This document shows, in pieces, positions 7,251-45,109 of a DNA stretch of 64,000 nt (position 1 is the stretch's first letter; each line of letters starts with the position of its first letter). The position numbers and the translations under genes were made by a program. Below the pieces are notes generated by a model. That model was given only the letters and a program-made list of their open reading frames with translations. It was not told the origin of the DNA and searched no databases. Source of the DNA: Shimia sp. SK013 (GTDB taxonomy: Bacteria > Pseudomonadota > Alphaproteobacteria > Rhodobacterales > Rhodobacteraceae); NCBI RefSeq assembly GCF_001292625.1, contig NZ_LAJH01000013.1, positions 62,001 through 126,000 on the forward strand, in the 5' to 3' direction.

Positions 7251-7268
7251 GCGAAAGGAAGGGACCTG

Positions 7269-11086: not shown

Positions 11087-11111
11087 TTTGGTTGTTCCCC
11101 TATAAGCTGGC

Positions 11112-11147: not shown

Positions 11148-11156
11148 AACAAATCT

Positions 11157-11828: not shown

Positions 11829-12027
11829 CCAAGGGGGTCAAAACAGACCGATTTTAGAACGAAACCCCTGCTGAAACAGCCAACGTGGCTCAGGTCTCGT
11901 TGCCAGTGCCATTGCAACAGTTTCGTCAGCTAGCTGCTCGGTCAGTCCCAGTTTGCCGCGTAGCCACGAGCAAGTTGGTCAAATTTCGAGCAGTCGACTA
12001 GCTGAGGGTGCGCAGCTAAGCCATCAC

Positions 12028-12843
12028 TCAGCCGAAGGCCGCCTTCACGGCTTCCAACACACGCTTGCTACTGCTTCGCAGGCGATAGTCGTCGGTTTGA
12101 TCAACCCACCGGATCGTCCCGGTTTCATCGATTAACAGAGTGGTCGGAATGGCCATTGCCTCGAATTTGAACGGCGCAAGCCCCACAGGTACACCGCCAA
12201 TCGTGAGCTTTGTGTTCTTTGTCTGACCAAGCGCTTTGTGATGCTCAACGCCATAAGCTCTGATGATTTTCAGGTCCGGATCGGACAGCAATGGGAAATC
12301 AAGCCCGTCACGCGTTTTGTGAATCTCCGCCTGCTCGGGCGTATCTTTGCTCAAGGCCAAAACGCTCACATCATGTTTTGCGAGCTCGTCCTTCATTGCG
12401 TCAAACGCAACAAGTTCAGCCGAGCAGTACGGACACCATCCGCCCCGAAAGAACTTCAGTAGAGTTCGTTTGCCGGATAGTTCTGAGCTGTCAAAGGCTG
12501 CGCCCTCTGACGTCATCGAGGTAAACGGTAACAGATTGTCCCCCACAGCGACTTTGATCTCTCCTATCGGCGTTTTGCGCTGAGTAAGAACCCACAAAAT
12601 GAAGCCGCCAAAGAAGATCCCAAGACTGGCCAGAACATAGGTCAAAGCACCGGCCATGCCTTCGCCAGTCAGACCAAGATAGACACCAATCAGTGACAGC
12701 GCGACGCCTATGATCAGCTTGGTGGCAAAGCCGCCAACTTTCTCTGGAACAGTCCCCCGAGGGATCGTTCGAAAGTAAAGGATTATCGAGATAAGAACGA
12801 TGGCGAAGCCAGCCATTGCTGTCAGTATTGCTGCGGTGTTCAT
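12028..12843 (-). CDS. Membrane-anchored peroxiredoxin/thioredoxin-like protein
   Basis: The 271-residue protein begins with three transmembrane helices (about residues 5-23, 41-59 and 66-86) followed by an AhpC/TSA-type thioredoxin fold. The active site is 'GGWCPYCSAEL' with Cys137 and Cys140, a CxxC arrangement more like thioredoxin-like reductants (the AhpC/TSA-2 group) than 2-Cys peroxiredoxins. A later 'MAIPTTLLIDETGTIRW' carries the cis-proline. It probably reduces peroxides or thiols at the membrane. 11829-12027 downstream shows no gene. It may share a transcript with the DUF1330-like gene upstream (52 bp gap). Confidence 0.85.
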   Translation of the reverse strand: MNTAAILTAMAGFAIVLISIILYFRTIPRGTVPEKVGGFATKLIIGVALSLIGVYLGLTGEGMAGALTYVLASLGIFFGGFILWVLTQRKTPIGEIKVAVGDNLLPFTSMTSEGAAFDSSELSGKRTLLKFFRGGWCPYCSAELVAFDAMKDELAKHDVSVLALSKDTPEQAEIHKTRDGLDFPLLSDPDLKIIRAYGVEHHKALGQTKNTKLTIGGVPVGLAPFKFEAMAIPTTLLIDETGTIRWVDQTDDYRLRSSSKRVLEAVKAAFG

Positions 12844-12895
12844 CTGGGTTTCCTTTGGCGATCAAGATTTGGCAGGTTAAACTAAATACACCTGA

Positions 12896-13177
12896 CTAGC
12901 CCAAAAGCAGAATACTAGATTCACCGCCGCGGCGGCGGAGATCGTGGACATCGGCAATGTCCGGGTCGTTTATCCAAGCCATTGCCGCCTCCTTGTCAGG
13001 GAAACTCAGCAGCGCCGCCATATTTGGCATCTCTGGCTCACCCTCCAAGGCGGTGAACTCGCCAGTGGCGGTGGCGACTTTTCCGCCGTGCTTTTCAAGC
13101 GCTGCCCCGGCCACATCCCGGTACTGCGCTAATGCTTCAGGGTTCTTAACGCTCATTTTTGCAATTGCGTAGATCAT
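12896..13177 (-). CDS. DUF1330-like small protein
   Basis: A 93-residue product: 'YAIAKMSVKNPEALAQYRDVAG' followed by 'GEFTALEGEPEMPNMAALLSFPDKEAAMAWINDPD', the usual DUF1330 pattern of a dimeric ferredoxin-like fold. Function unknown. It is divergent from a LysR regulator (95 bp between starts), which makes this gene and the membrane-anchored peroxiredoxin downstream likely regulatory targets. Confidence 0.85.
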   Translation of the reverse strand: MIYAIAKMSVKNPEALAQYRDVAGAALEKHGGKVATATGEFTALEGEPEMPNMAALLSFPDKEAAMAWINDPDIADVHDLRRRGGESSILLLG

Positions 13178-13238
13178 CTAAGCCTCCAACGTGTTTCTGC
13201 ACCGAACATTGGCCTAGCCTGCGCCAAGTGAAAACGCG

Positions 13239-13248
13239 TGCAATTGCA
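13239..13248. promoter_or_regulatory. Palindrome in the LysR/DUF1330 divergent region
   Basis: A perfect TGCAATTGCA palindrome lies 24 bp before the LysR start codon; nine of its bases recur at 13160-13168 within the start of the DUF1330 gene. Position and symmetry fit a LysR binding site, but no experiment supports it. Confidence 0.35.
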
Positions 13249-13272
13249 TAGCGCTCGTGCATAAAAGCATAC

Positions 13273-14145
13273 ATGGATATAGCTTGGGATGATTTGCGCA
13301 CAATTCTGATGCTCGTGCGGCATGGTTCACTGGCAGGCGCCGCGGAGGCCCTGAACATTAACTACACGACCGTAGCGCGCAGAGTTCGCCGCGCCGAAGA
13401 GGCATTAGACCAGCTCTTGTTTGAACGCTTGCCGGACGGATACAGACCAACCGAAGCGGCACATTTGATCGCCGAAAACGCCGAAAGAATGGAAAACGCG
13501 GAACACGATATGTTGCGCCGGTTGCAAGGGACCAGCACAGAGCTGTCGGGAAGTCTAAAGATAACAGCACCGCACGTGCTCATTGCCAATTTCCTGTCTC
13601 CGGTCATCGATGAGTTCAGCAAAGCCCACCCAAGAATTGACCTGCGTATACTGGCAACAACCGAGCTTTTGGACCTGACACGGCTTGAGGCTGATCTCGC
13701 AATCCGTATCAGTCGAAACCCAGGCGATACCCTGACTGGAGTTCGGCTCCTGAAACAGGACACTGCGAGCTTCGCAAATCGGGAGGTTGCAGAACGCATT
13801 CGAGTTGATCCGACCGCGATGATCGACTGGCTTGTTTACGAGTCTCACCCAAATCTTCCCAAGGCGATTTCGCCGGAATTTCCGAACAACCGCGCACGTC
13901 TTCAGTTTGATGATGTCGTCGCCATGATTGGGGCTGCGCAGGCCGGATTGGGTGTCATGCGTTTGCCGATGTTTCTGGGACGCGCCTCTACTGGGTTGGT
14001 CCAGGTTCCGGTTCTGCCACCCCAACCTTATGCCGATATTTGGGTCGTGGGGCACCCCGACGTGTGGCCCTCGCAAAAACTGCGCGCACTCAGGGCTATT
14101 CTGACGAAGCACTGCAAGGCACAAAGCCACAGGTTTGTCGCCTGA
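13273..14145 (+). CDS. LysR-family transcriptional regulator
   Basis: The 290-residue protein has a helix-turn-helix ('GSLAGAAEALNINYTTVARRVRRAEEAL', residues 17-44) and a LysR effector domain of the shorter type ('SGSLKITAPHVL', 'GVRLLKQDTASFANR'). The 'ALDQLLFERLPDGYRPTEA' joint is that of the AaeR/YhjC-like subgroup of single-domain oxidative or efflux regulators. Divergent from a DUF1330-membrane peroxiredoxin pair, so a role in redox control is possible but inferred only from position. Confidence 0.9.
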   Translation: MDIAWDDLRTILMLVRHGSLAGAAEALNINYTTVARRVRRAEEALDQLLFERLPDGYRPTEAAHLIAENAERMENAEHDMLRRLQGTSTELSGSLKITAPHVLIANFLSPVIDEFSKAHPRIDLRILATTELLDLTRLEADLAIRISRNPGDTLTGVRLLKQDTASFANREVAERIRVDPTAMIDWLVYESHPNLPKAISPEFPNNRARLQFDDVVAMIGAAQAGLGVMRLPMFLGRASTGLVQVPVLPPQPYADIWVVGHPDVWPSQKLRALRAILTKHCKAQSHRFVA

Positions 14146-29812: not shown

Positions 29813-30745
29813 TCAGACCCGCGGTCCTGCAGTCATCGCTGCAATCATTTCCTTCATATGGCGCATGTCGGTGCCGCAACATCCGCCCACAACATTGATC
29901 TGCGAAAACCTGTGCTCAATGTCTGCAAGTTGTTGGCCGAATTCTTTCGGATCACCACTGTCGAGCGTGTCTGCCTCATCCAGTTCCGCATGGCTGCAGC
30001 GAGACGCATTGGCGACCACACCGCGCAAGCGCTCCCGACACAAAGGCGAATCAATTGCGCCGATCAAATGTTCAGGGTGAGCACAATTCACCATGAAATA
30101 AGCAGGATAATAGTCACAGGCCTCGTCTACCTCTCGGATCGCCGCCTCCAAGGAAACGCCAACAGGCAAGCGCCCATCCGTTTCCACCGTGAAGGCGATT
30201 ACAACTGGCAAACCCGCCTTCTTAGACGCCAAAGCAATGCCCGCGGCTTCGTTTGGATAGGACAGTGTATAGCCCGTCACCAAATCCGCTTCCGTTTCTG
30301 CCAAAACCGCAATCTGCTCTGTGTGATACGCCGTTGCTTCGGCCACGGTCATCTGTTCACGCGGTGCGTAAGCGTCTTGGCGCGGACCAACATTTCCGCT
30401 GAGCAGAACCGGATGCACCGCACTTGCGCGCAATTCATCCATAAACGCCATCGCTGCGCGGTTGGCTTTGGCCAAGGCATCCGGTCCATACCCAATCGCC
30501 GCCGCGCGATCCCTATTGGCCAGCCAAGTCGTGCTTTCCAAAATCACGCCAAGCCCGGCCTCTAGGCCCAGATCGATCATCTGCTGATACGACCGGCGCA
30601 ACAACGCCCGCCCCTCGGCCGTTTCCAACAGCGGATAGGAGGCAAATCCTGGCAACTCGGCGCCTTGCGTAAACAGCAAATCGGTTTCCATGCCTGTGTA
30701 AGCAAGGAATAAATCACCGCTTTCGTGCGGAAGAAGGTTAGGCAT
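29813..30745 (-). CDS. Homocysteine S-methyltransferase family protein (first paralogue)
   Basis: The 310-residue protein belongs to the zinc-dependent BHMT/MmuM family: 'YTGMETDLLFTQG' at the N-terminus, one zinc Cys in 'YFMVNCAHPEHL' and the Cys pair in 'GGCCGTDMRHM'. Members move a methyl group from betaine, S-methylmethionine or a related donor to homocysteine or another thiol. It ends the leftward demethylation cluster, 94 bp downstream of a dimethylglycine-dehydrogenase-like gene. ATG at 30745 or 30760 could start it. The methyl donor is inferred from the cluster. Confidence 0.88.
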   Translation of the reverse strand: MPNLLPHESGDLFLAYTGMETDLLFTQGAELPGFASYPLLETAEGRALLRRSYQQMIDLGLEAGLGVILESTTWLANRDRAAAIGYGPDALAKANRAAMAFMDELRASAVHPVLLSGNVGPRQDAYAPREQMTVAEATAYHTEQIAVLAETEADLVTGYTLSYPNEAAGIALASKKAGLPVVIAFTVETDGRLPVGVSLEAAIREVDEACDYYPAYFMVNCAHPEHLIGAIDSPLCRERLRGVVANASRCSHAELDEADTLDSGDPKEFGQQLADIEHRFSQINVVGGCCGTDMRHMKEMIAAMTAGPRV

Positions 30746-30854
30746 TTGTGACACCGGCAATTCCTGTAGGTTTTGCCGACCTTAACAGAGCTTTCAGGGC
30801 GCAGGGAAAAGGATGCATTTGGCGGGTTTCACCACTTTGTGCCACCCATGCATC

Positions 30855-33305
30855 CTAAACCTTCACACGTTCCGATTTGGGATCATACATCGGCCGGATC
30901 GACGCCTCAGCGCGCACTTTCGTGCCCATCACGTCGATCTCATAGGTCGAGGCCAACACCTCTGCCGCCTTTTCCCCTGCGCAGGGCACATAGCCCAAAC
31001 CAATCGCACCACCCAATGTGTGGCCATAATTGCCCGAGCTGAGGTATCCAACATATTCCCCATCCCGCAAGATCGGTTCATTGTGGAACAACAGCGGCTC
31101 TGGATCGGTGAGTTTGAACTGCACCATACGCGCCTGCGGACCCGTCTCTTTGCGGGCAATCACCGCCTCTCGGCCAATGAAATCCGGCTTGTCTGTCTTG
31201 ACCGCAAAGCCCAGCCCCGCGTCCACCACATGATCTTCGCATGTGATGTCATGGCCAAAATGCCGGAAGCCTTTTTCGATCCGGCAGCTGTCCATCATAT
31301 GCATACCACACAACTTCAGCCCCATGTCCTGACCGGCGTCAAACAACGTCTCAAACGCGTGCCCCGCCATGTCTGAGGACACATAAATCTCCCAACCAAG
31401 CTCGCCCACAAAGGTTACCCGATGCGCTCGCGCGAGGCCCATGCCAAGCTCGATCTCTTGCGCTGTGCCAAACGGGTTTGTCGCATTGGTGAAATCGGCG
31501 GGCGAAACTTTCTCCAACAGCTTGCGCGCGTTTGGCCCCATGATCGCCAACACACCTTCGCCCGCCGTGACATCGGTGATCACCACGTTAAAGTTGCCCT
31601 TGTTGCGCATCATCCACGTCTGATCTGCCAATCGCGTCGCCGCGGGGGTCACCACCAAATAAGCGATCTCGCTCATACGTGTGACAGTCACATCCGCCTC
31701 GATCCCACCCTGACGGTTTAGGAATTGCGTATAGACGATCTTGCCATTTGGCACCGAATAGTCGCCACCGCCCACGTAGTTCATAAAGGCCTCGGCATCC
31801 GGCCCTTCGACGCGGATTTTGCCAAAAGACGACATGTCGTACATGCCCACGTTTTCACGCACCGCGCGGTGCTCGGCGGCAGAATTTTCAAACCAGTTCT
31901 GACGCTTCCACGAGTAATGATAGTCGCGTTCCTGGCCGTCGTTGGCGAACCAGTTGGCCCGCTCCCACCCAGCCAATTCGCCCATCACCGCGCCTTGTTC
32001 TTTCAGATGATGATGAAACGGCGTGCGCCGCACACCGCGCGCAGTGGCCTTTTGACGATAGGGGAAGTGGTCCGCATAAAGCAGCCCCAGCGTTTCCTTA
32101 GAGCGTTCAAACAGATAGGTTTTGTTGCCCTGAAACGGCTGCATCCGCGAGATATCGACGTCGCCCAAATCAAAAGGCTTCTGCCCGTCTTCCATCCACT
32201 GCGCCAAGGCCATACCCGCGCCGCCCGCCGATTGAATGCCAATCGAGTTGAACCCCGCCGCGACCCAGACATTGTCCATCTCGGGCGCCAAACCAAGGTG
32301 ATAGGCATCATCGGGCGTAAAGCTTTCAGGGCCGTTGAAAAAGGTATGAATGCCCGCCTCTGCCAGCATCGGCATGCGATTGACCGCCGCCTCTAGGATG
32401 GGTTCAAAGTGGTCAAAATCCTCTGGCAGTTGATCGAATTCAAAGCTGTCGGCAATGCCGTTCATGCCCCAAGGTTTGGCCGTGGGTTCAAAAGCACCCA
32501 GCAGGATTTTGCCCGCGTCCTCTTTGTAATACGCGCATTCATCCGGCACCCTCAGCACCGGCAATTGCGTCAACTGCGGGATGTTCTCCGTGACGATATA
32601 GAAGTGTTCACACGCATGTAGCGGCACATTCACACCCGCCATACGGCCAACCTCATGGCCCCACATACCGGCGCAATTGACGATCATGTCGCAGTCAATA
32701 TGGCCTTGATCTTGGCCGTCATCGCTGACCCAATCCACGCCCGTCACCTCGCGACCTGCCTTGGCGATATTCGTGACCTTCACCCGCTCTTTGACGATGG
32801 CGCCGTTCTGACGCGCGCCTTTGGCCAGCGCCAGCGCGATATTGGCCGGATCGCCCTGCCCATCAAGCGGCAAATAGACCCCTGCGGTCACGTCTTCGAT
32901 GTTGAGATGGTCGTATTTGGCTTTCACCTCGGCGGGCGAGATTTCCTCGACCTCTACGCCAAAGGCCCGCGCCATCGCAGCTTGGCGATAGATTTCTTCG
33001 CGGCGCTCTTCGGTCAAGGCGACGGTGATCGACCCACAGCGCTTAAAGCCCGTGGCGACGCCCGTTTCAGCCTCGAGATTGCCGTAGAGCTCTTGTGAGT
33101 ACTTCGCGAGTTTGGTCATATTGGCGGTGGCGCGCAGTTGCGCGATCAGGCCAGCGGCATGCCATGTGGTGCCGGACGTGAGCTGTTTGCGCTCCAGCAG
33201 GACCACGTCTTTCCAACCCAGTTTGGTCAAATGATAGGCGACTGAGCAGCCAACAACGCCGCCGCCGATGATGGCCACGCGGGCCTTGTTTGGGAGATCA
33301 ACCAT
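30855..33305 (-). CDS. FAD-dependent dimethylglycine/sarcosine dehydrogenase-like protein (DAO + GcvT)
   Basis: The 816-residue protein has an N-terminal FAD domain ('VAIIGGGVVGCSVAYHL', residues 10-26) with 'TTWHAAGL', whose His is where mammalian dimethylglycine dehydrogenase carries its covalent FAD. A C-terminal aminomethyltransferase (GcvT) part from about residue 430 ('LGLGYVP' near the end, 'GELGWEIYV') binds tetrahydrofolate. It oxidises N-methyl groups, giving formaldehyde or methylene-THF. It is one of two paralogues of equal length here; in this one 'GLIAQLRATANMTKLAKYS' differs clearly from the other. Exact substrate is inferred only from the cluster. Confidence 0.9.
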   Translation of the reverse strand: MVDLPNKARVAIIGGGVVGCSVAYHLTKLGWKDVVLLERKQLTSGTTWHAAGLIAQLRATANMTKLAKYSQELYGNLEAETGVATGFKRCGSITVALTEERREEIYRQAAMARAFGVEVEEISPAEVKAKYDHLNIEDVTAGVYLPLDGQGDPANIALALAKGARQNGAIVKERVKVTNIAKAGREVTGVDWVSDDGQDQGHIDCDMIVNCAGMWGHEVGRMAGVNVPLHACEHFYIVTENIPQLTQLPVLRVPDECAYYKEDAGKILLGAFEPTAKPWGMNGIADSFEFDQLPEDFDHFEPILEAAVNRMPMLAEAGIHTFFNGPESFTPDDAYHLGLAPEMDNVWVAAGFNSIGIQSAGGAGMALAQWMEDGQKPFDLGDVDISRMQPFQGNKTYLFERSKETLGLLYADHFPYRQKATARGVRRTPFHHHLKEQGAVMGELAGWERANWFANDGQERDYHYSWKRQNWFENSAAEHRAVRENVGMYDMSSFGKIRVEGPDAEAFMNYVGGGDYSVPNGKIVYTQFLNRQGGIEADVTVTRMSEIAYLVVTPAATRLADQTWMMRNKGNFNVVITDVTAGEGVLAIMGPNARKLLEKVSPADFTNATNPFGTAQEIELGMGLARAHRVTFVGELGWEIYVSSDMAGHAFETLFDAGQDMGLKLCGMHMMDSCRIEKGFRHFGHDITCEDHVVDAGLGFAVKTDKPDFIGREAVIARKETGPQARMVQFKLTDPEPLLFHNEPILRDGEYVGYLSSGNYGHTLGGAIGLGYVPCAGEKAAEVLASTYEIDVMGTKVRAEASIRPMYDPKSERVKV

Positions 33306-33344
33306 GGCAAAGTCCTTTCAGGAATTTCGACTGGCTTGCGCCAA

Positions 33345-33400
33345 CGATCCGGCCGGGGGCGCTGCCCCCGGACCCCCGGGATATTTTGAGCAAGAGGAAA
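33345..33400 (-). repeat. Double-hairpin intergenic element, inverted copy
   Basis: Read on the minus strand, CTCAAAATATCCCGGGGGTC is followed by a strong GGGGGC-AGC-GCCCCC hairpin; this is the same left end as the copies at 25138, 38454 and 60795, in opposite orientation. It fills the 95-bp gap between two cluster genes. Confidence 0.65.
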
Positions 33401-34303
33401 TCATGCACCGACAATCGTGTGACCTGCGGCAGCGAGGCGTGTGGCAAGCTCTGCGATATGCGCGGGGCCGACCTCGCAGCAGCCGCCGATCAGTTTAAGG
33501 CCCTGATTGGCCCAGCCCAAGGCGAAGTCAGCGTGCGTAGCAGGGGACAAGTCTGTGCGCGCTGACAAGGCATCAGCCGTGCCGCCAATTTCAAGCGCAC
33601 CAATCCCGGTGAAGCCATTGGCATAGGCCCCCGTTGGCAAGCCAGCGGCCAGAACCGTGGCGATATTGGCGTCAATCACTTCGGGTTTGCAGCAATTGAG
33701 ACCCACGCCCGCGATGCCAGAGCCTTGTAGGGCTGCGAGTGCCTCGGCCAGTGGTTCGCTCGAGCGCAACGTGCCGCTGGCGTCATCTTTCAGCGTCATG
33801 AAAACCCAAGTGGGCAGGCCGGTCTCAACCGCCGCCAGTGCCGCAGACGTGACTTCGGCGACGCTAGAGAGGGTTTCTGCAAGGATCAAATCGCTGGCCG
33901 CGACCTGACCTGCGATAATCTCGCGGTAAAGCGGCAATAGATCATCGTGGCTCATGGCCATATCGGGCCGGTAAGAGCCGTGCAAGGGCGACAGGCATCC
34001 GGCGATCTTGACACCTTCAGCGCCAACCTCATCCCGTGCAGCACAAGCGAGGTCGACCGCGCGTTGTTGCAGCCGCGCAAACATATCCGGCTCACCTTCA
34101 CGCTCCAGCCGTTCGGGCGTCACTGTATACGTGTTGAGTGTGATCAGGCGCGCACCGGCGCGGATATAGTCGGCATGCACCCCCTGAACAACGTCGGGCT
34201 CGTCCATCATTACCTTGCAGGACCACAATGGATGAGGTGGCATCGACGAGCGCGCCAGAAGCTCTTGGCCGGTGCCACCGTCTTTGAGAATGATGTCGCT
34301 CAC
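33401..34303 (-). CDS. Homocysteine S-methyltransferase family protein (second paralogue)
   Basis: The 300-residue protein is a BHMT/MmuM-type barrel: 'ILKDGGTGQELLARSS', 'LITLNTYTVTPERLER', zinc Cys in 'VGLNCCKPEVI' and Cys pair in 'IGGCCEVGPAHI'. The last motif is GGCCEV where most members have GGCCGT. GTG at 34303 overlaps the stop of the upstream dehydrogenase by four bases (GTGA), so they are translationally coupled and probably act in sequence: methyl transfer from the quaternary donor, then oxidative demethylation of the product. Confidence 0.88.
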   Translation of the reverse strand: MSDIILKDGGTGQELLARSSMPPHPLWSCKVMMDEPDVVQGVHADYIRAGARLITLNTYTVTPERLEREGEPDMFARLQQRAVDLACAARDEVGAEGVKIAGCLSPLHGSYRPDMAMSHDDLLPLYREIIAGQVAASDLILAETLSSVAEVTSAALAAVETGLPTWVFMTLKDDASGTLRSSEPLAEALAALQGSGIAGVGLNCCKPEVIDANIATVLAAGLPTGAYANGFTGIGALEIGGTADALSARTDLSPATHADFALGWANQGLKLIGGCCEVGPAHIAELATRLAAAGHTIVGA

Positions 34304-36750
34304 GCCCGCAGTCTTTCGTTTTCCGGATCCCACATCGGTTGATCTTCTTGCACCACCGCGCGGTATTTTTTGCCGTAGATTTCGACCTCAAGCTTTGTGC
34401 CGGCCGCTGCCAGTTCCGCCTTGATCATGCCCAGCGCGATCGAGGCATTCACCCGATAGCCCCAGCCACCCGATGTGGTTTCGCCAACGATCTGATCGCC
34501 ATGCCAGACGCAGGACATATAGGGCGCGTCCGTATCTCCGGCCTCGACCTTCAACGTCACAAAGGACTTTTTCACGCCCTGCTGTTTCTCACTCAAGATC
34601 GCGGCTTTGCCCGGGAAATCCTGCGGCTTACCAAGCTTCACAAAGCGCCCAAGTCCACCTTCAAGCAGCGAATAATCTGTCGACAAGTCGCCTTTCCACG
34701 CGCGGTAGCCTTTCTCCAGACGCAGCGAGTTCAGCGCATACATGCCAAAGGGCTTCGCCCCGCCTGCGACAATCGCATCATAGATCGCCGGCATATCGGC
34801 GTTCAGAGCATGGACTTCCCAGCCCAGCTCGCCCGCAAAAGACACGCGGATCAAATAGGCAGGCTGACCGGCCACTGTGGCAGACTGATGGGTCAACCAA
34901 CCGGTACTAAGGTCCGCATCGGTCAAACCCGACAGGATCTCACGCGATTTTGGCCCCGTCACAATCAACGTGTCCCGCGAGGTGGTGACATCTTCGACCG
35001 TCACAGTCGCGGGCATCGCAGCCGTCAGAATATCGCGGTCATGCCATTGCGCCGTGGCGGCTGTGATCATCAGGAAGTCATCATCGCCCATCCGGATACA
35101 GGACATTTCCGTCAGGATCCGCCCACGCGCGTCTGCCACATAGACAAGGTTCATGCGACCCACTTTCGGCAAACCCCCGGTGATCAGGCCACGCAAAGTT
35201 TCCGCCGCGCCTTCGCCGCGCACCATGAACCGCGAGAACCCCGGCAGATCAAGCACGCCGCAGTGATCGCGCACGGCTTCACATTCTTCTTTGATGCGCG
35301 CTTCCCAGGGGCCGGAGCGCCCCCATGTGTGGGTGGCGTCCAGCGACGTGTCGTCGCCGTCCTTGGCGAACCAATTGGCCCGCTCCCAACCGTTATAGGC
35401 CCCCATAACACCACCCTGTGCAACAACCCGGTCATGGACGGGGGAGAGCTTTTTGTCGCGCGCGGCGGGCCATTCGTGATGCGGGAAATGCATGGCGTAC
35501 TCGTTTCCGTAAACCTCCATGCCTTTCTTCACGCAATAATCGTGATCTGTGTAATCCGTATAGCGGCGCGGATCGACGGCCCACATGTCCCACTCGGGCG
35601 CGCCATCGACGATCCATTCCGCAAGAACCTTGCCTGCGCCGCCACCTTGGGCAATGCCAAAGGTGAACACACAGTTTTCAAACGCATTTTCCACGCCCGG
35701 CATCGGACCAATCAAAGGCAATCCGTCCGGCGCATAGGGGATCGGGCCATTGATCACACTGCTCACGCCAGTGGTCGCCATCAAAGGCACACGCTCCATG
35801 GCGTCGGTCACAATGTCCTCGATCCGGTCCAGATCATCCTGCCAAAGCTGGAAGCTGAAATCGTCAGGCATCACTTCGCCGTCCGTGTCCCAATGCGCCT
35901 TACAGTTGGGCTCATAGGGGCCAAGGTTATAGCCGTGCTTTTCCTGCCGCAGATAATAAGACACATCCACATCGCGGATCAGCGGCAGTTTCACGCCGCC
36001 GTTTTCCTTGGACCAGGTCTCGATCTCGGGGATCTGCTCGGTCAACAGATACTGGTGGCTCATCACCATCATCGGCACTTTGCGCCCTCCATAGGGCTCA
36101 AACATCTCGCCGACGCGCTGTGCGTAATACCCAGCTGCGTTCACCACGTAATCACAGGCGATGTCGCCTTTGTCGGTGTGCACAACCCATGTCTTGTCCG
36201 CCTGCTGCGTCACACCGGTGGCCGGACAAAACCGTATGATCTTGGCGCCCATGTCACGCGCACCTTTGGCCAAGGCCTGCGTCAGCTGCGCGGGGTCGAT
36301 GTCGCCATCTGTCGGATCATACAACACACCGGCAAGGTCGTGTGTCTCAAGGAACGGATAGCGCTCTTTGGCCTCTTCCGGAGTCCACATCTCCATCGGG
36401 ATGCCTTGATAGCGGCCCATCGACAGCGCGCGCTCAAACTCCTGCATGCGCGCTTTGGTATGCGCCAGCCGGATTGACCCCGACTGGTGATAGTTCATCG
36501 GGTAATCGACCTCTTCGCCCAATCGCGCATAAAGCTCGGTCGAATAACGCTGCATGTTCATGATCGCCCAACTGGTCGAGAACGTCGGCACATTGCCCGC
36601 CGCGTGCCACGTGGACCCCGCCGTCAGCTCGTTCTTCTCCAACAACACACAATCGGTCCAGCCCTTCTTGGCCAGATGATACAGGCTGCTTGCGCCGACA
36701 ACGCCGCCGCCGATGATGACCACACGGGCCTTGCTTGGAAAGTCAGACAT
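34300..36750 (-). CDS. FAD-dependent dimethylglycine dehydrogenase-like protein (DAO + GcvT), second paralogue
   Basis: A 816-residue protein with the same two-domain architecture as its neighbour: 'VVIIGGGVVGASSLYHL' FAD motif, 'GSTWHAAGN' with the predicted covalent-FAD His, and a C-terminal GcvT region ('FAGELGWEVHALNADMP', 'NSLRLEKGYRAWKGDL'). The sequence around the substrate pocket differs ('VPTFSTSWAIMNMQRYS'), so it likely takes another substrate, for example one step of betaine, dimethylglycine, sarcosine. It is coupled by a 4-bp overlap to a homocysteine methyltransferase and preceded by a LysE exporter gene. Confidence 0.9.
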   Translation of the reverse strand: MSDFPSKARVVIIGGGVVGASSLYHLAKKGWTDCVLLEKNELTAGSTWHAAGNVPTFSTSWAIMNMQRYSTELYARLGEEVDYPMNYHQSGSIRLAHTKARMQEFERALSMGRYQGIPMEMWTPEEAKERYPFLETHDLAGVLYDPTDGDIDPAQLTQALAKGARDMGAKIIRFCPATGVTQQADKTWVVHTDKGDIACDYVVNAAGYYAQRVGEMFEPYGGRKVPMMVMSHQYLLTEQIPEIETWSKENGGVKLPLIRDVDVSYYLRQEKHGYNLGPYEPNCKAHWDTDGEVMPDDFSFQLWQDDLDRIEDIVTDAMERVPLMATTGVSSVINGPIPYAPDGLPLIGPMPGVENAFENCVFTFGIAQGGGAGKVLAEWIVDGAPEWDMWAVDPRRYTDYTDHDYCVKKGMEVYGNEYAMHFPHHEWPAARDKKLSPVHDRVVAQGGVMGAYNGWERANWFAKDGDDTSLDATHTWGRSGPWEARIKEECEAVRDHCGVLDLPGFSRFMVRGEGAAETLRGLITGGLPKVGRMNLVYVADARGRILTEMSCIRMGDDDFLMITAATAQWHDRDILTAAMPATVTVEDVTTSRDTLIVTGPKSREILSGLTDADLSTGWLTHQSATVAGQPAYLIRVSFAGELGWEVHALNADMPAIYDAIVAGGAKPFGMYALNSLRLEKGYRAWKGDLSTDYSLLEGGLGRFVKLGKPQDFPGKAAILSEKQQGVKKSFVTLKVEAGDTDAPYMSCVWHGDQIVGETTSGGWGYRVNASIALGMIKAELAAAGTKLEVEIYGKKYRAVVQEDQPMWDPENERLRA

Positions 36751-38787: not shown

Positions 38788-39189
38788 TCACCGCGCGCCG
38801 GTTTCGGAAGCGTCTTCGCTCAGCACTTTCCTTGCTGCGCGAAAGCATTCCAGCCCCTGCGGGACACCACAGTAAATGGCAACCGCATGAATGATGGCTC
38901 GGATTTCTTCCTCAGTGACACCATTATTGATGGCCCCACGGCAGTGAAGTTCCCATTCGGTCATTTTCCCCAAAGCACCGATCATTGCCAGATTCATCAT
39001 CGAGCGGGTCTTGGCGTCGATCACCTCATCTCCCCAACCAAAGCCCCAGCACCAGGCTGTCATCGCCTCCTGAAAGGGGCGCGTGAACTCGTCCGCGGCG
39101 GCGAGGTTCTTCTCCACATACTCTGCTCCCAGAGTTGCTTTGCGTTGCTCCAGGCCCTTCATGAACAGGTCTTCGTCAAAAGTCGTCAT
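38788..39189 (-). CDS. Carboxymuconolactone decarboxylase-family protein
   Basis: The 133-residue protein is a PcaC/AhpD-like all-helical domain with 'FGWGDEVIDAKTRSMMNLAMIGALGKMTEWELHCRGAINNGVTEEEIRAIIHAVAIYCGVP'. It has no CxxC redox pair of AhpD; the position of Glu and His fits the gamma-carboxymuconolactone decarboxylase branch. It would remove a carboxyl group from a ring-cleavage lactone or a related molecule. It follows the DUF1330 gene (11 bp gap) in a short operon led by a GntR regulator, facing a monooxygenase operon. Confidence 0.88.
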   Translation of the reverse strand: MTTFDEDLFMKGLEQRKATLGAEYVEKNLAAADEFTRPFQEAMTAWCWGFGWGDEVIDAKTRSMMNLAMIGALGKMTEWELHCRGAINNGVTEEEIRAIIHAVAIYCGVPQGLECFRAARKVLSEDASETGAR

Positions 39190-39200
39190 TACGCGATTCC

Positions 39201-39494
39201 TTAAGTGGCTAGGCCTTCGGCTATTACTATGTTCGCGGTGCAGGCCGTTTCGCGATGCACGCGAGCCGATTTGTATTCGGGCGAATGGTAGCAGGCGAGC
39301 GCCTGAGCTTTGCTTTCAAATTCAATGATCACATGTCGTTGAAAGTCCTGCCCTTCCAGTGTGTCGCCATCGTCGCCGCGCACCAAAAATTTTGCACCGT
39401 ATTTGGCAAAAGCTGCCGGTGCGTGTTTTTGGTAGCCCGCATATCGGCTCGGATCAATGACGGTGACAAAGGCGATCCAGTAACCTTTAGGCAT
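39201..39494 (-). CDS. DUF1330 family protein
   Basis: A 97-residue product with 'GYWIAFVTVIDPSRYAGYQKHAPAAFAKYGAKFLVRGDDG' and 'VIIEFESKAQALACYHSPEYKSARVHRE', the DUF1330 pattern. It may be a small isomerase or lyase of the ferredoxin-like type. Its 5' end overlaps the 3' end of the GntR gene by eight bases, so both are translated from one message. Confidence 0.9.
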   Translation of the reverse strand: MPKGYWIAFVTVIDPSRYAGYQKHAPAAFAKYGAKFLVRGDDGDTLEGQDFQRHVIIEFESKAQALACYHSPEYKSARVHRETACTANIVIAEGLAT

Positions 39495-40182
39495 CTTTCA
39501 CCTCCGGTTGGTCCGCGTTCAAAAACCCCCGCGCCGTTTTGGCGGCATCCGTGATATGCGCCTCTACAGCGGCACGCGCGGTGGCGGCATCCCGGCTAAG
39601 AATTGCGTCATGAATTGACCTCATATGGCTCATGCCTGATGTTTCTCGGTCGCGAGCAGCAATGGTCAAAGCGCGTAGACGGCTTATTCTGCCGTTTAGG
39701 CGTTGCACGATGTCCCATGCGATTGTCTGACCTGCTTCCAGAAAGATAAGCTCATAGAACTTTGTGGTTGCTTGCAAAAGATCGGCCCATTCGGTGTCAT
39801 CCATAGTGGCTTCGACAGCATTTAGAGCACGGGTGAGTTTTGGACCAAAATTCCTGCCCTGAACCACAGTGCAAGCAGCAGCCGCGGACCCTTCCAACAG
39901 CAGGCGAACGTCGTATATCTGCTTGGCCTGATCCCAGCTTAACGTGGCGACGATGGGCCCCTGGTTGGGCACAATCTCAACCAGACCCTCAGCTTCGAGG
40001 TAGCGGATAGTTTCGCGCACGACAGTCCGACTGACGCCAAGCTGGTCACAAAGCGGACGTTCGACAAGGCGTTCGCCGGGTGCAAAGTGGCCAGCGATAA
40101 TGGCTTCCCGCATCCGGTGTTGCACGATGTCGCGCAGGGTTTGCGGGGCCTTGGTGATCTTTTTCAATTGGGTAACTGACAT
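39487..40182 (-). CDS. GntR-family regulator (FCD subfamily)
   Basis: The 231-residue protein has the GntR winged helix ('LRDIVQHRMREAIIAGHFAPGERLVERPLCDQLGVSRTVVRETIRYLEAEGLVEIVPNQGPIVA', residues 17-80) and an all-helical FCD ligand-binding domain (about 90-215) of the FadR/VanR type that often carries a metal ion. It is divergent from the monooxygenase operon, with a perfect palindrome between them, and is the likely repressor of both directions, released by a pathway carboxylate. Confidence 0.92.
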   Translation of the reverse strand: MSVTQLKKITKAPQTLRDIVQHRMREAIIAGHFAPGERLVERPLCDQLGVSRTVVRETIRYLEAEGLVEIVPNQGPIVATLSWDQAKQIYDVRLLLEGSAAAACTVVQGRNFGPKLTRALNAVEATMDDTEWADLLQATTKFYELIFLEAGQTIAWDIVQRLNGRISRLRALTIAARDRETSGMSHMRSIHDAILSRDAATARAAVEAHITDAAKTARGFLNADQPEVKDA

Positions 40183-40238
40183 ACTGCGTGCTTATCAGGG
40201 CGACCGAAGCGCTTCAAGCGTTCTTGACATACGGTCTT

Positions 40239-40250
40239 ATGGTATACCAT
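40239..40250. promoter_or_regulatory. Perfect 12-bp palindrome, probable GntR operator
   Basis: ATGGTATACCAT sits 34 bp before the first gene of the rightward operon and 57 bp before the GntR gene. FCD-type GntR regulators bind sites of the form TGGTnnACCA, so this is the likely operator. A TTGACA hexamer at 40224-40229 lies ahead of it, placing the site in the promoter. Confidence 0.6.
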
Positions 40251-40284
40251 GCTTTGAGACGACTCAGTAACCCAAGGAAATGCA

Positions 40285-40887
40285 ATGCCCGCTGAAATCC
40301 GCAAGACGCTGCTTCATGTTGAGAACACGCTGATCGAGGGCGGTAAAATTGCTGAAACGCCCCTCAAGATGATCGCGGCGGTCGCAGTGATAAAAAACCC
40401 ATGGGCAGGGCGGGGGTTTGTCGAGGATCTGCGTCCGGAGATCCATGAGTGTGCACCGGGGCTCGGTGAAATTCTAACCGAATTGATTCTTGAAGCCGCC
40501 GGCGGCGGTGACAAGGTGGAGGGCTACGGGAAGGCCGCTATTGTCGGTGTGAATGGCGAAGTGGAACATGCCTCGGCTTTGATCCACACCCTGCGGTTCG
40601 GAAATCATTTTCGTGAAGCGGTTGGGGCCAAGTCTTATTTGGCTTTCACCAATACGCGCGGCCCAGCAAACGCATCTTTGCAAATCCCTTTGATGGACAA
40701 AAACGATGGCGGCCGCCGCAGCCACTACTTGACCATTCAACTGTCTATCGCGGATGCGCCCGCCCCAGACGAGATCGTGGTTGCATTGGGAGCCTCAGTC
40801 GGCGGGCGTCCGCATCACCGCATCGGAGACAGGTATCAAGACTTGAAGGAACTTGGCCATGACGTTGACAACCCTGCGGCTGTCTGA
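40285..40887 (+). CDS. Amino acid synthesis (AA_synth/DUF1185) family protein
   Basis: The 200-residue protein matches PF06684: 'IRKTLLHVENTLIEGG', 'VAVIKNPWAGRGFVEDL', 'GYGKAAIVGVNGEVEHASALIH', 'FGNHFREAVGAKSYLAFTNTRGPA' and 'KNDGGRRSHYLTIQLSIADAPAPDEIVVALGAS'. Reported structures have a chorismate-mutase-like fold; the name has no biochemical basis. AAGGA about 9 bp upstream supports the start. It opens a five-gene operon with a monooxygenase system, so it may act on an early or late intermediate of a ring-cleavage pathway. Confidence 0.85.
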   Translation: MPAEIRKTLLHVENTLIEGGKIAETPLKMIAAVAVIKNPWAGRGFVEDLRPEIHECAPGLGEILTELILEAAGGGDKVEGYGKAAIVGVNGEVEHASALIHTLRFGNHFREAVGAKSYLAFTNTRGPANASLQIPLMDKNDGGRRSHYLTIQLSIADAPAPDEIVVALGASVGGRPHHRIGDRYQDLKELGHDVDNPAAV

Positions 40888-41668
40888 CCCATACGGCAAA
40901 CTGGCATTTCGCGAAGCAGGATCCGGGCAGCCGATTGTGCTGATCCATGGTGTCGGTATGCAGTCTGCCGCTTGGATGCGACAGATCGAAATGCTGTCCA
41001 AAACACATCGCGTGATTGCCCTCGACATGCCCGGTCATGGCGGGTCCTCGCCTCTCAGGCGCGGCGCGCAACTTCCTGAGTATGTTGATTGGCTTCAAGC
41101 CGCCTTGAGGGGTCTCCGCTTGGAACGCATAAGCTTGGCTGGTCACTCGATGGGAGCCCTGATCGCTCTGGGGTTTGCCGCTACCCACACACAAATGCTG
41201 GATCGCGTCGCAGTGCTGAATGGCGTCTACTGCCGGTCAAAGAACGCGCGCGCCGCGGTGGAAGAACGCGCAGCACAGATCAATGAAGGCGTATTTGATT
41301 TGGCAACGCCTTTGGCCCGATGGTTTGGCGACACACCCTGCGAGCAGATCGCGCGCGAAAAGGTTGCTGGGTGGCTGTCTGAGGTGGATTTGCAAGGCTA
41401 CGCAACAGCGTATGACGCCTTCGCACGCGGAGATACGACCTATGCCGACCGACTGGGCAATATCACCTGCCCACTGCTGGCTTTGACCGGAAGTGATGAT
41501 CAGAATTCGTCGCCTGAAATGGCGCGATCCATCGCCGCCGCCGCGCCGCTCGGGCAAGCGCTGGTGATAGAGGGGCACCGCCATATGGTTAGTTTGACAG
41601 CTGAAGAAGCGGTGAACACAGCCCTGCAAGAGTGGCTCGAAACAAAACAAAAAGTAGAGGCGCAATGA
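40859..41668 (+). CDS. Alpha/beta-fold hydrolase
   Basis: The 269-residue protein is a classic alpha/beta hydrolase: 'IVLIHGVGMQSAAW' (oxyanion region), nucleophile elbow 'LAGHSMGALIAL' with the catalytic Ser, and a late 'IEGHRHMVSLTAEEAV' with the catalytic His. It may open a lactone or hydrolyse an amide, ester or enol-lactone in the pathway, similar to RutD and PcaD in related pathways. It overlaps the preceding gene by 29 bp (ATG 40859) and the next by four, so the operon is tightly coupled. Confidence 0.9.
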   Translation: MTLTTLRLSDPYGKLAFREAGSGQPIVLIHGVGMQSAAWMRQIEMLSKTHRVIALDMPGHGGSSPLRRGAQLPEYVDWLQAALRGLRLERISLAGHSMGALIALGFAATHTQMLDRVAVLNGVYCRSKNARAAVEERAAQINEGVFDLATPLARWFGDTPCEQIAREKVAGWLSEVDLQGYATAYDAFARGDTTYADRLGNITCPLLALTGSDDQNSSPEMARSIAAAAPLGQALVIEGHRHMVSLTAEEAVNTALQEWLETKQKVEAQ

Positions 41669-42582
41669 CGGAATTTGACCCACGTGAACTGCGCGATGCC
41701 TTTGGGGCTTTCATGACCGGCGTGACCGTCGTGACCACCCATGACGTCGACAAAAAGCCAATCGGGTTCACCGCCAACTCTTTTTCCTCGGTCTCATTGG
41801 ATCCGCCGTTGGTTTCGATCTGCATTGCCAATAGTTCAAGTAACTATGACGCACTCGCAACCGCGTCGGGCTTTGCCGTCAATGTTCTGTCGGAAACCCA
41901 AAAGGATGTATCTAACACATTTGCCCGGCCGGTCGACGACCGTTTTGCCGCGGTGACCTGGCAGAACGGTCCGAACGGCGCGCCCGTCTTTGAGGATTGC
42001 TCGGCTTGGTTTGATTGTTCGATGTTCAAAACGGTTGAGGCCGGAGACCATCTAATCTTGATCGGCAAAGTTGAAGCCTTTGAGAACAGCACGAGACCCG
42101 GCCTTGGCTATGTGCGTGGTGCCTATGTGACCCCCGCATTGGAGGCCGAAGCACTCAGCAACACGTCCAACCTCCTGCTTTCGGTGTTGATCGAATACCG
42201 TGGGAAAGTTCTTTTGGTTGATGATGGGCGCGGCCAGCTTTCGTTACCTGAAATGCACGTCGGCAAGGAGGGTGTCTCAGCCGTTTTGCAAGGACTTATC
42301 ACGAGCAACGGTGCCGAAGCCGAGGCTGGGTTTATCTACTCGGTCTACGAAGATGAAGCCCGCGCAACGCAACACATCTCGTTCCTTTGTCAGGCAAGCA
42401 GGGGCACTGCGACGATCGGAGCTTTTGTCGAACTGTCTTCGACCACTCTGGCGGACATCGCAGACCCGGCTGTCCGCATCATGCTTGAGCGGTTTGCGAG
42501 CGAAAGCCGGATGGGGAATTTTGGGGTATATTTTGGCAACCACGTCAGCGGCAATGTTCGCGCGATGACATCAGGGAGTTAA
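41665..42582 (+). CDS. Flavin reductase with C-terminal Nudix-like domain
   Basis: The 305-residue protein starts with a flavin-reductase domain (residues 1-160): 'LRDAFGAFMTGVTVVTT', 'IGFTANSFSSVSLDPPLVSICIA', 'FAVNVLSETQKDVSNTFAR' and 'GDHLILIGKVEAFE'. This type supplies reduced FMN to a partner monooxygenase. The usual family ends there; here ~135 more residues follow ('LLSVLIEYRGKVLLV', 'VGKEGVSAVLQGLI', 'QHISFLCQAS') that look like a Nudix fold without its catalytic GX5EX7REUXEEXGU motif. It lies directly before the luciferase-like monooxygenase, its obvious partner. The role of the extra domain is unknown; it may sense a ligand. Confidence 0.88.
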   Translation: MTEFDPRELRDAFGAFMTGVTVVTTHDVDKKPIGFTANSFSSVSLDPPLVSICIANSSSNYDALATASGFAVNVLSETQKDVSNTFARPVDDRFAAVTWQNGPNGAPVFEDCSAWFDCSMFKTVEAGDHLILIGKVEAFENSTRPGLGYVRGAYVTPALEAEALSNTSNLLLSVLIEYRGKVLLVDDGRGQLSLPEMHVGKEGVSAVLQGLITSNGAEAEAGFIYSVYEDEARATQHISFLCQASRGTATIGAFVELSSTTLADIADPAVRIMLERFASESRMGNFGVYFGNHVSGNVRAMTSGS

Positions 42583-42585
42583 GGC

Positions 42586-43623
42586 ATGAAGTTTTCTCTT
42601 TTCGCTCATATGGAGCGTATTTCCTCTGATGAAGATCAAAAGCAGCTGTATGATGAGTTCGTTGAACTGTGCAAAATCGCGGACAAGGGCGGGATGCATG
42701 CGGTTTGGACTGGCGAACATCACGGGATGAACTTCACGATCTCGCCGAACCCGATGCTCAACTTGGTGGACATCGCACGCCAAACGACAAATGTGCGGTT
42801 GGGCACGGGCACCGTCATTGCGCCGTTCTGGCACCCGATCCGTCTGGCTGGCGAAGCTGCCATGACAGACATTATTACGGAAGGTCGATTGGATCTGGGT
42901 ATCGCACGCGGGGCGTATTCGTACGAGTATGAGCGCCTTGTGCCCGACATGGACGCTTGGGAAGCTGGGCAGCGAATGCGAGAGCTGGTCCCCGCAGTCA
43001 AGGCTTTGTGGAAGGGGAATTATGCCCACGAGGGAGAGTTCCATTCCTTCCCCAAAACCACGTCATCGCCCAAGCCCATCCAAGCAGATGGACCCCCAAT
43101 CTGGATCGCAGCACGCGACCCTAACAGCCACGAGTTTGCTGTGCAGCAGGGCTGCAACGTGCAGGTCACACCCCTGTGGAACGGAGAGCCGGAGATCGCG
43201 GACTTGATGAAGAAATTCAACGACGCTTGTGCGAAACACTCTGATCTCCCCCGTCCCAAGATCATGTTGCTCTTGCACACCTATGTCGGGGACAGCGATG
43301 AAGACAGCAAGCAAGCAGCCGTCGAACTCAATCGGTTTTATTGCTACTTTGGCGCATGGTTCATGAACAAGCGCGATGTCGATCAGGGCCTGATCGCACC
43401 GATGAGCGACGAAGAAATCGCGGCTCACCCCTTCTATACTCCTGAGGCGATGGAACGTGATCTGGTGATCGGAACGCCCGAAAAAGTGATAGAGCGTCTC
43501 AAAGTGTATGAGGCTTTAGGATATGACGAATACTCGTTCTGGATCGACAGCTCGATGCCGTTTGAGCGCAAAAAGGCTTCGCTTGAAAGGTTCATAAACG
43601 ATGTGATGCCGGCCTTCGCATAA
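42586..43623 (+). CDS. LLM-class flavin-dependent monooxygenase
   Basis: A 345-residue bacterial-luciferase-like barrel: 'FAHMERISSDEDQKQLYDEFVELCKIADKGGMHAVWTGEHHG', 'NVRLGTGTVIAPFWHPIRLAGEAAMTDIITEGRLDLGIARG', 'PIWIAARDPNSHEFAVQQGCNVQVTPLW' and 'IGTPEKVIERL'. Members use reduced FMN from a separate reductase to insert oxygen in alkanes, aldehydes, nitrogen heterocycles (as RutA opens uracil) or ketones. Its reductase is the gene just upstream. The substrate is unknown; the aldehyde dehydrogenase downstream suggests an aldehyde or semialdehyde product. Confidence 0.92.
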   Translation: MKFSLFAHMERISSDEDQKQLYDEFVELCKIADKGGMHAVWTGEHHGMNFTISPNPMLNLVDIARQTTNVRLGTGTVIAPFWHPIRLAGEAAMTDIITEGRLDLGIARGAYSYEYERLVPDMDAWEAGQRMRELVPAVKALWKGNYAHEGEFHSFPKTTSSPKPIQADGPPIWIAARDPNSHEFAVQQGCNVQVTPLWNGEPEIADLMKKFNDACAKHSDLPRPKIMLLLHTYVGDSDEDSKQAAVELNRFYCYFGAWFMNKRDVDQGLIAPMSDEEIAAHPFYTPEAMERDLVIGTPEKVIERLKVYEALGYDEYSFWIDSSMPFERKKASLERFINDVMPAFA

Positions 43624-43645
43624 GACGATGACAAGGAAAAACCAA

Positions 43646-45109
43646 ATGCAGAGATTTCAGCAGTATATCGATGGTGAGTTCCTGAACGGGAGTAGCCAGT
43701 TTGACAGCCTCGATCCTGCAACGGGTGCACCTTGGGCGAAAATGCCGGCGGCCTCCGGCGCAGACGTTTCCCGCGCAGTTGAGGCTGCGGATCGCGCGTT
43801 TCTTGCGCCTGATTGGGCCTTAATGACGGCAACCGCACGCGGGAAACTATTGATGCGGCTCGCGGACCTGATTGCAGACAACGCCTCCCATCTGGCCGAG
43901 CTGGAAACCCGTGACACCGGAAAAATCATCCGAGAAACCAGCGCGCAGATCTCCTATGTCGCGGACTACTACCGCTACTATGCCGGATTGGCCGACAAGA
44001 TCGAAGGCGCCCACCTCCCTATCGACAAACCCGACATGGAAGTCTGGCTGCGCCGTGAGCCCATAGGTGTTGTCGCGGCAATTGTTCCGTGGAATTCGCA
44101 GCTCTTCCTGTCTGCCGTCAAAATAGGACCAGCCCTTGCGGCGGGCTGTACTGTGGTTCTGAAAGCCAGTGAAGAAGGCCCCGCGCCCATGTTGGCGTTT
44201 GCACGCATTTTTGATCAGGCCGGTTTCCCCAAGGGCGTTTTCAACGTGGTCACAGGCGGACCCGAGGTTGGCGCCGCGCTGACCAGCCATCCGAAAGTCG
44301 CCCATGTGGCCTTTACGGGCGGCCCCGAAACCGCACGACATATTGTGCGAAATTCGGCGGAAAACCTGGCGTCAACCTCGCTCGAATTGGGGGGCAAGTC
44401 GCCCTTCATCGTGTTTGACGATGCTGATCTGGAAAGCGCGGTAAATGCGCAAGTTTCAGGGGTTTTTGCGGCCACCGGACAAAGTTGCGTGTCCGGCTCT
44501 CGTCTTGTGGTTCATGCTGATATCAAAGAGGCGTTTCTTGCGCGTCTCAAGGCAAAGGCCGAGGCGGTGGTGATCGGCGCACCTGATGATATGGCGACCG
44601 AGGTCGGGCCGCTTTGCACCCTTCGACAGCGCGACACCGCGCTGAGCCTGATTGCGCAATCTGTCAAACAGGGCGCCAAACTTGTGACGGGGGGCGTGGC
44701 TTTGGAACGCGATGGGTTCTACTTCCCGCCGACTATTTTGGATTGTGACGATGCTCCAGAGGCCGTCAGCCTGAGCCAAGAATTTTTCGGGCCGGTCTTG
44801 TCCGTCGTCAGCTTTCATACCGAAGCCGAGGCCGTTGAGATCGCCAATAGCACTCAGTTCGGTTTGGCATCGGGGGTGTTTACGCAAAACTTAACCAGAG
44901 CGCATCGCATGATCCGGGCAATCCGAGCAGGCATTGTATGGGTGAACACGTACCGCGCCGTCAGCCCAATAGCGCCATTTGGTGGCCACGGGCTGTCTGG
45001 TCACGGGCGCGAAGGCGGTATCGAAGCTGCTTTGGATTTCACCAAAGTGAAAGCCGTTTGGTTGCGAACCAGCGACGAACCCATTCCAGACCCTTTCGTG
45101 ATGCGTTGA
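43646..45109 (+). CDS. Aldehyde dehydrogenase (NAD(P)+)
   Basis: The 487-residue protein is a standard class 3-fold ALDH: 'PWNSQLFLSAVKIGPALAAGCTVVLKASEEGP', 'FTGGPETARHIV', catalytic Glu in 'SLELGGKSPFIVFDD' and catalytic Cys in 'ATGQSCVSGSRL'. Such enzymes oxidise semialdehydes to acids. It ends the five-gene operon. AAGGA lies 9 bp before ATG 43646; an ATG at 43628 is possible. Downstream, 45110-45257 shows no gene. Confidence 0.93.
   Translation: MQRFQQYIDGEFLNGSSQFDSLDPATGAPWAKMPAASGADVSRAVEAADRAFLAPDWALMTATARGKLLMRLADLIADNASHLAELETRDTGKIIRETSAQISYVADYYRYYAGLADKIEGAHLPIDKPDMEVWLRREPIGVVAAIVPWNSQLFLSAVKIGPALAAGCTVVLKASEEGPAPMLAFARIFDQAGFPKGVFNVVTGGPEVGAALTSHPKVAHVAFTGGPETARHIVRNSAENLASTSLELGGKSPFIVFDDADLESAVNAQVSGVFAATGQSCVSGSRLVVHADIKEAFLARLKAKAEAVVIGAPDDMATEVGPLCTLRQRDTALSLIAQSVKQGAKLVTGGVALERDGFYFPPTILDCDDAPEAVSLSQEFFGPVLSVVSFHTEAEAVEIANSTQFGLASGVFTQNLTRAHRMIRAIRAGIVWVNTYRAVSPIAPFGGHGLSGHGREGGIEAALDFTKVKAVWLRTSDEPIPDPFVMR

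Follow-up and report, generated by a model that had tools for sequence, protein, structure and literature searches.

Gene content and organisation of the locus

We analysed a 64 000-nucleotide stretch of the genome of Shimia sp. SK013 (assembly GCF_001292625.1, contig NZ_LAJH01000013.1, positions 62 001 to 126 000; hereafter the window), in which positions 38788–45109 carry eight genes arranged around a luciferase-like monooxygenase (LLM). All eight were found as intact open reading frames with the positions, strands and identities given in an original prediction made from the sequence, and every one matched a Pfam family above its cut-off. Genes for a CMD-family protein, a DUF1330 protein and a GntR/FCD regulator lie on the minus strand, and those for an AA_synth protein, an alpha/beta hydrolase, a flavin reductase, the LLM and an aldehyde dehydrogenase (ALDH) on the plus strand. 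The plus-strand genes overlap or are separated by gaps of 3–4 bases, bearing out the compact operon that had been predicted, and the minus-strand trio looks like a second operon. The GntR and AA_synth genes are divergent, with 102 bases between them. The features are listed below, with identities to counterparts in Acinetobacter baylyi DSM 14961 and on pSymA of Sinorhizobium meliloti.

38788–39189, minus strand: CMD-family protein of 133 amino acids, accessory gene (Pfam CMD; 47% A. baylyi; homologue in 34 of 85 comparison loci)
39201–39494, minus strand: DUF1330 protein of 97 amino acids, accessory gene (Pfam DUF1330; 56% A. baylyi; homologue in 70 of 85 loci)
39487–40182, minus strand: GntR/FCD regulator, presumed tgn repressor (Pfam GntR and FCD; A. 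baylyi counterpart, 50%, in the same divergent place)
40224–40229, plus strand: TTGACA, possibly the -35 element of the plus-strand operon (putative promoter, read from the sequence)
40239–40250, no strand: palindrome ATGGTATACCAT in the divergent intergenic region, presumed operator (conservation of the core GTATAC)
40285–40887, plus strand: AA_synth (PF06684/DUF1185) protein, TgnF-like (Pfam, 236.9 bits; 68% A. baylyi, 76% S. meliloti)
40853–41668, start perhaps ATG 40859, plus strand: alpha/beta hydrolase, TgnD-like (Pfam; 52% A. baylyi, 52% S. meliloti)
41665–42582, plus strand: flavin reductase, TgnA-like, whose C-terminal domain has a Nudix fold but no Nudix box (Pfam; full-length to 3rh7; 48% A. 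baylyi, 51% S. meliloti)
42586–43623, plus strand: LLM (Bac_luciferase), TgnB-like candidate ring-opening enzyme (Pfam; 72% A. baylyi, 68% S. meliloti; tree)
43628–45109, plus strand: ALDH (Aldedh), TgnC-like (Pfam; 68% A. baylyi, 73% S. meliloti; N156, E253, C287)

The mechanical open reading frame of the flavin reductase reaches back to a GTG at 41632; because the alignment with the structure 3rh7 begins at residue 13 of this frame, the ATG at 41665, which overlaps the hydrolase stop codon, is preferred and is probably the start. Hydrolase residues S99, D216 and H244 were at least 99% conserved across 86 aligned sequences, that of the window included, and the catalytic residues N156, E253 and C287 of the ALDH were all present. 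An inverted repeat was noted at 40168–40179/40264–40275, and ARAGORN reported zero tRNA genes in the window.

Counterparts in Acinetobacter and Sinorhizobium

Counterparts of all eight window proteins were identified in a single cluster of A. baylyi DSM 14961 (locus L015), with the identities listed above. The DUF1330, GntR, AA_synth, hydrolase, reductase, LLM and ALDH genes agree in order and orientation between the two loci; the CMD gene is also shared, but follows a succinate-semialdehyde dehydrogenase (SSADH) gene directly in A. baylyi and the DUF1330 gene in the window. The A. baylyi cluster differs further in having an NCS1-type transporter, a 388-amino-acid protein of no known family and the SSADH (682.6 bits with its model, 646.35 being needed). 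The LLM alignment with A. baylyi spans 345 columns, and those of the reductase 305 (A. baylyi) and 301 (S. meliloti). As the AA_synth gene of DSM 14961 is the only match to this family genome-wide and lies inside the L015 cluster, it ties the cluster to the published TgnF. Published statements used here come from PMC2954203, PMC7913881, PMC8269262, PMC9151330, PMC11354265, PMC12489286, PMC4207669, PMC12239276 and PMC13390433. According to these, TgnB is a luciferase-family trigonelline monooxygenase, and TgnA and TgnB perform the first, ring-opening step. In A. baylyi ADP1 the TgnE-dependent oxidation of succinic semialdehyde is stimulated by TgnF, a homologue of a DUF1185-type protein; a comparable effect was not observable for HcdD itself.

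Six of the eight window genes also have counterparts on pSymA of S. meliloti (strain 1021, L085; strain ml66, L086, annotated). Those for the AA_synth protein, hydrolase, reductase, LLM and ALDH adjoin one another beside noeAB; a GntR gene (40%) precedes the set in L086, the L085 stretch starting too late to include that place. The reductase aligned over its full length to PDB entry 3rh7, which is titled SMa0793 of S. meliloti 1021. A single mention of this entry occurs in a paper about the flavin reductase BorF (PMC13327496). Differences from the window are that genes for a NIPSNAP protein, an ABC transporter and an SSADH come after the set, that the GntR gene is not divergent and that no CMD or DUF1330 match was found within the L085 and L086 stretches. 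The trigonelline catabolism region of pSymA is named trc. We infer that the genes found here are those to which the title of a 1991 paper on S. meliloti refers; in another published study, growth on trigonelline separated the wild type, which grows, from a strain without pSymA, which does not.

A maximum-likelihood tree of 36 LLM sequences from 32 loci, with a midpoint root for drawing only, placed both anchors and the window on one side of a split (100/100) from two diverged loci, L106 and L107. The window sequence fell in a clade of 12 (98/93); a node at 88/78 united this clade with the S. meliloti group, and the A. baylyi group lay outside; some inner forks stayed open and the program warned of long branches.

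Conservation of the gene set was assessed in 85 comparison loci, namely the best 80 from a genome scan with the LLM of an Acinetobacter relative (73% identical to that of the window and found by a plasmid search), three plasmid LLM matches, one reductase match and one pSymA stretch; together with the window's own locus, L001, they made a BLAST database of 86. Since they were picked by LLM likeness the LLM is present by construction in 83, and in some cases several strains represent a single species. At E values up to 1e-8 and at least 70% coverage, homologues were found for the ALDH and hydrolase in all 85, for AA_synth and the reductase in 84 each, for GntR in 77 (anywhere in the locus, possibly outside the cluster), for DUF1330 in 70 and for CMD in 34. 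As decoys, six genes adjacent to the cluster in the window matched in 0, 0, 2, 1, 0 and 0 loci (60% coverage), so the eight-gene set is not a chance neighbourhood. The DUF1330 and CMD genes, which the original prediction had listed with the regulator opposite the operon, are part of this neighbourhood too. Genes for SSADH, an NCS1 transporter and an ABC binding protein come and go among the loci, which places their absence from the window's cluster within the habit of the family.

The palindrome was surveyed in the window and 95 loci, keeping the 55 regions (54 loci and the window) in which GntR and AA_synth genes are divergent within 500 bases. Of these, 52 contained the core GTATAC (L004, L065 and L066 did not) and 46 the exact sequence TGGTATACCA; in 300 rounds of shuffling, the number of regions with GTATAC averaged 2.1 and reached 7 at most. 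The window palindrome is perfect, and that of A. baylyi, which shares the core, differs from it by one base. We therefore presume ATGGTATACCAT to be an operator on grounds of conservation, its copy number being no better than in controls (see below). The sole genomic copy of TGGTATACCA is the one at this locus, an indication that the regulator may be dedicated to this cluster.

Orthology, gene order, operon structure, palindrome conservation and catalytic residues were computed directly, and from them we consider it very probable that the locus is a tgn cluster for the GntR-controlled degradation of trigonelline (N-methylnicotinate), a small molecule made by plants and found in plankton. The original prediction had instead proposed a new Rut-like pathway acting on an N-heterocycle or aromatic lactone, knowing of no described pathway with this gene set and naming a characterised pathway of the same content as what would refute it; the tgn cluster of A. 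baylyi is such a pathway, pSymA carries a counterpart, and the proposal of a new pathway was rejected. It is true that an oxygenase, a reductase and a hydrolase are all present, and that the hydrolase and the CMD protein distantly resemble PcaD and PcaC, but the complete set is that of tgn, and the family models all scored below their cut-offs: RutF 95.5 against 254.75 bits, RutD 63.1 against 238.5, PcaC 120 against 155.7 and PcaD 115.4 against 255.85. Membership of the Rut and Pca systems was rejected on these scores, and a new Rut-like pathway is very improbable. What survives of the Rut likeness is its general logic: the Rut pyrimidine pathway combines an LLM-type monooxygenase with a flavin reductase and an alpha/beta hydrolase, to which the window adds the ALDH and AA_synth. 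The pyr operon for pyridine degradation in Arthrobacter is likewise similar in logic, with an LLM monooxygenase, a reductase, a hydrolase and a semialdehyde dehydrogenase. Taken as a whole, the earlier interpretation is partly supported, since its chemistry of flavin mononucleotide (FMN)-dependent ring opening, hydrolysis and aldehyde oxidation is right in kind, as tgn chemistry.

Proposed pathway and competing explanations

In the pathway proposed for Shimia sp. SK013, the reductase would generate reduced FMN using NADH, and the LLM, with FMNH2 and O2, would open the pyridinium ring to give N-methylformamido-methylene hydroxybutyrolactone. The ALDH would convert this to N-methylformamido-methylene succinate, from which the alpha/beta hydrolase would release succinate semialdehyde, formate, methylamine and CO2. 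An SSADH encoded elsewhere in the genome would then form succinate, with the AA_synth protein assisting around this step. The GntR protein would repress both operons at TGGTATACCA until released by trigonelline or an intermediate. The intermediates of the second to fourth steps and the assignment of letters to genes are those reportedly described by Perchat et al. (2018).

Two SSADH-like genes elsewhere in the genome (57% and 53%) could supply the last step, and we infer that they serve this pathway. The type of uptake system differs between the A. baylyi and S. meliloti anchors, and hence is not strictly defining for tgn. Directly upstream of tgn in A. baylyi (L015, 1817–5412) lie a sarcosine-oxidase-alpha-family gene (874 bits against 1164 for its model) and a weak gamma-like gene, which perhaps handle the methylamine released by the pathway.

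The same architecture could act on another pyridinium betaine, such as homarine (N-methylpicolinate) or another marine N-methylpyridinium acid. In PMC8269262, homarine was reported to exceed trigonelline in abundance in samples from the sea; according to the author correction PMC10134881, the homarine values of that paper were overstated. Related genomes also contain diverged sister modules built from the same set of genes, which indicates that substrates can differ. One of them, L105 (6303–11150), encodes AA_synth, hydrolase, reductase, LLM and ALDH proteins 66, 43, 36, 68 and 57% identical to those of the window, with a LysR-type gene adjoining. In L106 (about 7456–14070) and L107 (about 1744–8360), identities are 64/63% for AA_synth, 29/32% for the hydrolase, 39% for the reductase, 41/39% for the LLM and 53% for the ALDH; three Caballeronia loci (L032, L033 and L036) hold a second set with an LLM at 57–58%. 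Sister modules perhaps act on other pyridinium betaines. A tree of AA_synth from the same loci placed L105 with L106 and L107 (98/94), while its fast-evolving LLM (68%) fell in the clade of the window; as the two trees disagree, L105 is either mosaic or misplaced.

The window's own proteins argue for trigonelline over homarine: its LLM, AA_synth and ALDH are 68–76% identical to those of the trigonelline anchors, and its LLM groups with them. PMC8269262 also holds TgnAB unlikely to act on homarine, and the discussion of another paper links homarine catabolism to Mgd, genes for which are not present in the window's cluster. For the sarcosine-oxidase-alpha-family protein encoded next to the A. 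baylyi cluster, the closest matches in the Shimia sp. SK013 genome are 35% identical. We regard a different pyridinium betaine as an improbable substrate. In favour of the trigonelline assignment itself, Ruegeria pomeroyi, a marine roseobacter, is reported to grow better on trigonelline than on homarine. Because a 2026 paper on homarine catabolism exists, the sister modules are not claimed to be undescribed.

A silent or decaying copy, no longer a working pathway, would be in keeping with the patchy distribution in the genus, where an LLM of at least 68% identity was found in 7 of 24 genomes other than the window's own (one of the seven, G005, holding the diverged L105 module). It would also be in keeping with a cluster that lacks an SSADH and for which searches with the NCS1 transporter and the ABC binding protein did not find uptake genes. 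Against decay stand open frames throughout, intact catalytic residues in the ALDH and hydrolase, the perfect palindrome and the SSADH-like genes elsewhere, and such a copy is extremely improbable.

Several points weigh against assignment to trigonelline degradation. No SSADH gene lies within the window's cluster; the A. baylyi NCS1-type transporter had no match in the genome, in a search run without a positive control, and the best match to the S. meliloti ABC binding protein was only 36%. For the fate of methylamine, the gln_synth_III model, which covers GmaS, scored 249.5 bits where 469.6 were needed, and a search for methylamine dehydrogenase gave no match, nor did its controls. As to the operator, the 55 regions are related by descent, and S. 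meliloti has no GTATAC upstream of its AA_synth gene, its GntR gene not being divergent. TGGTATACCA occurs once in the 4.05-Mb genome, equal to the reversed control, and likewise within the window; a search allowing one mismatch gave at least one match in 37 of 100 window shuffles. Support is moderate (88/78) for the node uniting the window's group with S. meliloti, and the tree is rooted at its midpoint. The tgn letters were set by family, gene order and passages of other papers, and the A. baylyi strain compared was DSM 14961, of the same species as ADP1. The substrate, the pathway steps in Shimia sp. SK013 and repression are deduced from sequence, and given the unsure place of L105 the substrate may have changed near the window.

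Accessory proteins and the wider module family

The AA_synth gene is the only match of its family in the Shimia sp. SK013 genome. A fold search returned its own family (3byq, Z 23.2; 2qtp, Z 21.5), while the remaining rows shown, which include PurM, ThiL, chorismate mutase and Rid proteins such as RutC (5.8), all lay under Z 7; a role based on fold was not reached, as nothing beyond the family scored higher. On a Nitratireductor plasmid (L118, 2268–6390), genes for AA_synth, hydrolase and SSADH lie opposite GntR and CMD, and the 12 kb shown contain no LLM monooxygenase, reductase or second ALDH. This context places AA_synth in the second half of the pathway, consistent with the report on TgnF. 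The family occurs in 85 of 148 sampled genomes of the order and must thus have wider uses, often appearing as two neighbouring matches, for example about 50 bases apart at G114:C13:89238–90340, G130:C2:3212768–3213870 and G181:C44:294393–295492. Two records named 'Acinetobacter phage MD-2021a' (H86, CAKLQH020000001.1, and H87, CAKLQF020000001.1; 329 and 379 kb) contain a DUF1185 gene, 71% identical in product to that of the window, and a pcaD-like gene, and are probably bacterial DNA labelled as phage.

The CMD protein, which scored below the PcaC cut-off, has no CxxC motif and retains E78 and H82. Its closest relatives were nine plasmid matches (79–89%), of which seven neighbourhoods were examined: one is a tgn cluster (L122), one the AA_synth–hydrolase–SSADH group of L118, four (L119, L120, L121 and L123) lie beside the subunit of a Rieske-type dioxygenase and an FAD oxidoreductase and are presumably betaine clusters, and one (L124) adjoins sarcosine oxidase genes, the relatives in these last five being 79–84% identical. 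Since the closest relatives are often found outside tgn, a dedicated decarboxylase of a tgn intermediate was rejected; the contexts suggest a protein with a broader accessory function in the catabolism of N-methyl compounds, not a tgn-specific enzyme.

Past about residue 170 the window's reductase gave no Pfam match, and conservation is lower in this second domain, with a median identity of 35% compared with 62% in the first. A model built from 32 sequences (mean pLDDT 84) was Nudix-like, matching 3cng (Z 16.9, 130 residues, rmsd 2.4) and 3rh7 (Z 14.9), with Foldseek TMq values of 0.72–0.73, and a profile search with the domain retrieved 3cng (E 5.2e-5). The domain is not new as a structure, because 3rh7 of S. 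meliloti already contains it. As the Nudix box was found in 0 of the 32 domain sequences and 0 of 85 reductase sequences including the window's, the modelled domain is more likely to be structural or sensing than a hydrolase.

Elsewhere in the window (29813–36750, minus strand), two 816-amino-acid FAD oxidoreductase–GcvT fusions alternate with two homocysteine S-methyltransferase-like genes, an arrangement that looks like demethylation of N- or S-methyl compounds.

A wider idea, which we put forward as unlikely, is that tgn is one branch of AA_synth-centred ring-opening modules for different pyridinium betaines, the other branches being L105, L106/L107 and the second Caballeronia set, and that AA_synth would be a small catalyst for cyclic hydroxybutyrolactone (pseudo-acid) forms of aldehydes and so feed the dehydrogenases. 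This would fit both the stimulation of succinic semialdehyde oxidation by TgnF and the presence of AA_synth in L118 without a monooxygenase.

The locus represents a previously known pathway in a further genome and should be annotated as trigonelline degradation. A false lead is thereby removed, and the locus gains a testable substrate, trigonelline, and a candidate operator. The part worth keeping is that PF06684, DUF1330 and CMD proteins recur in tgn clusters, no settled role having been found for them, and that the sister modules are candidates for the degradation of other pyridinium betaines.

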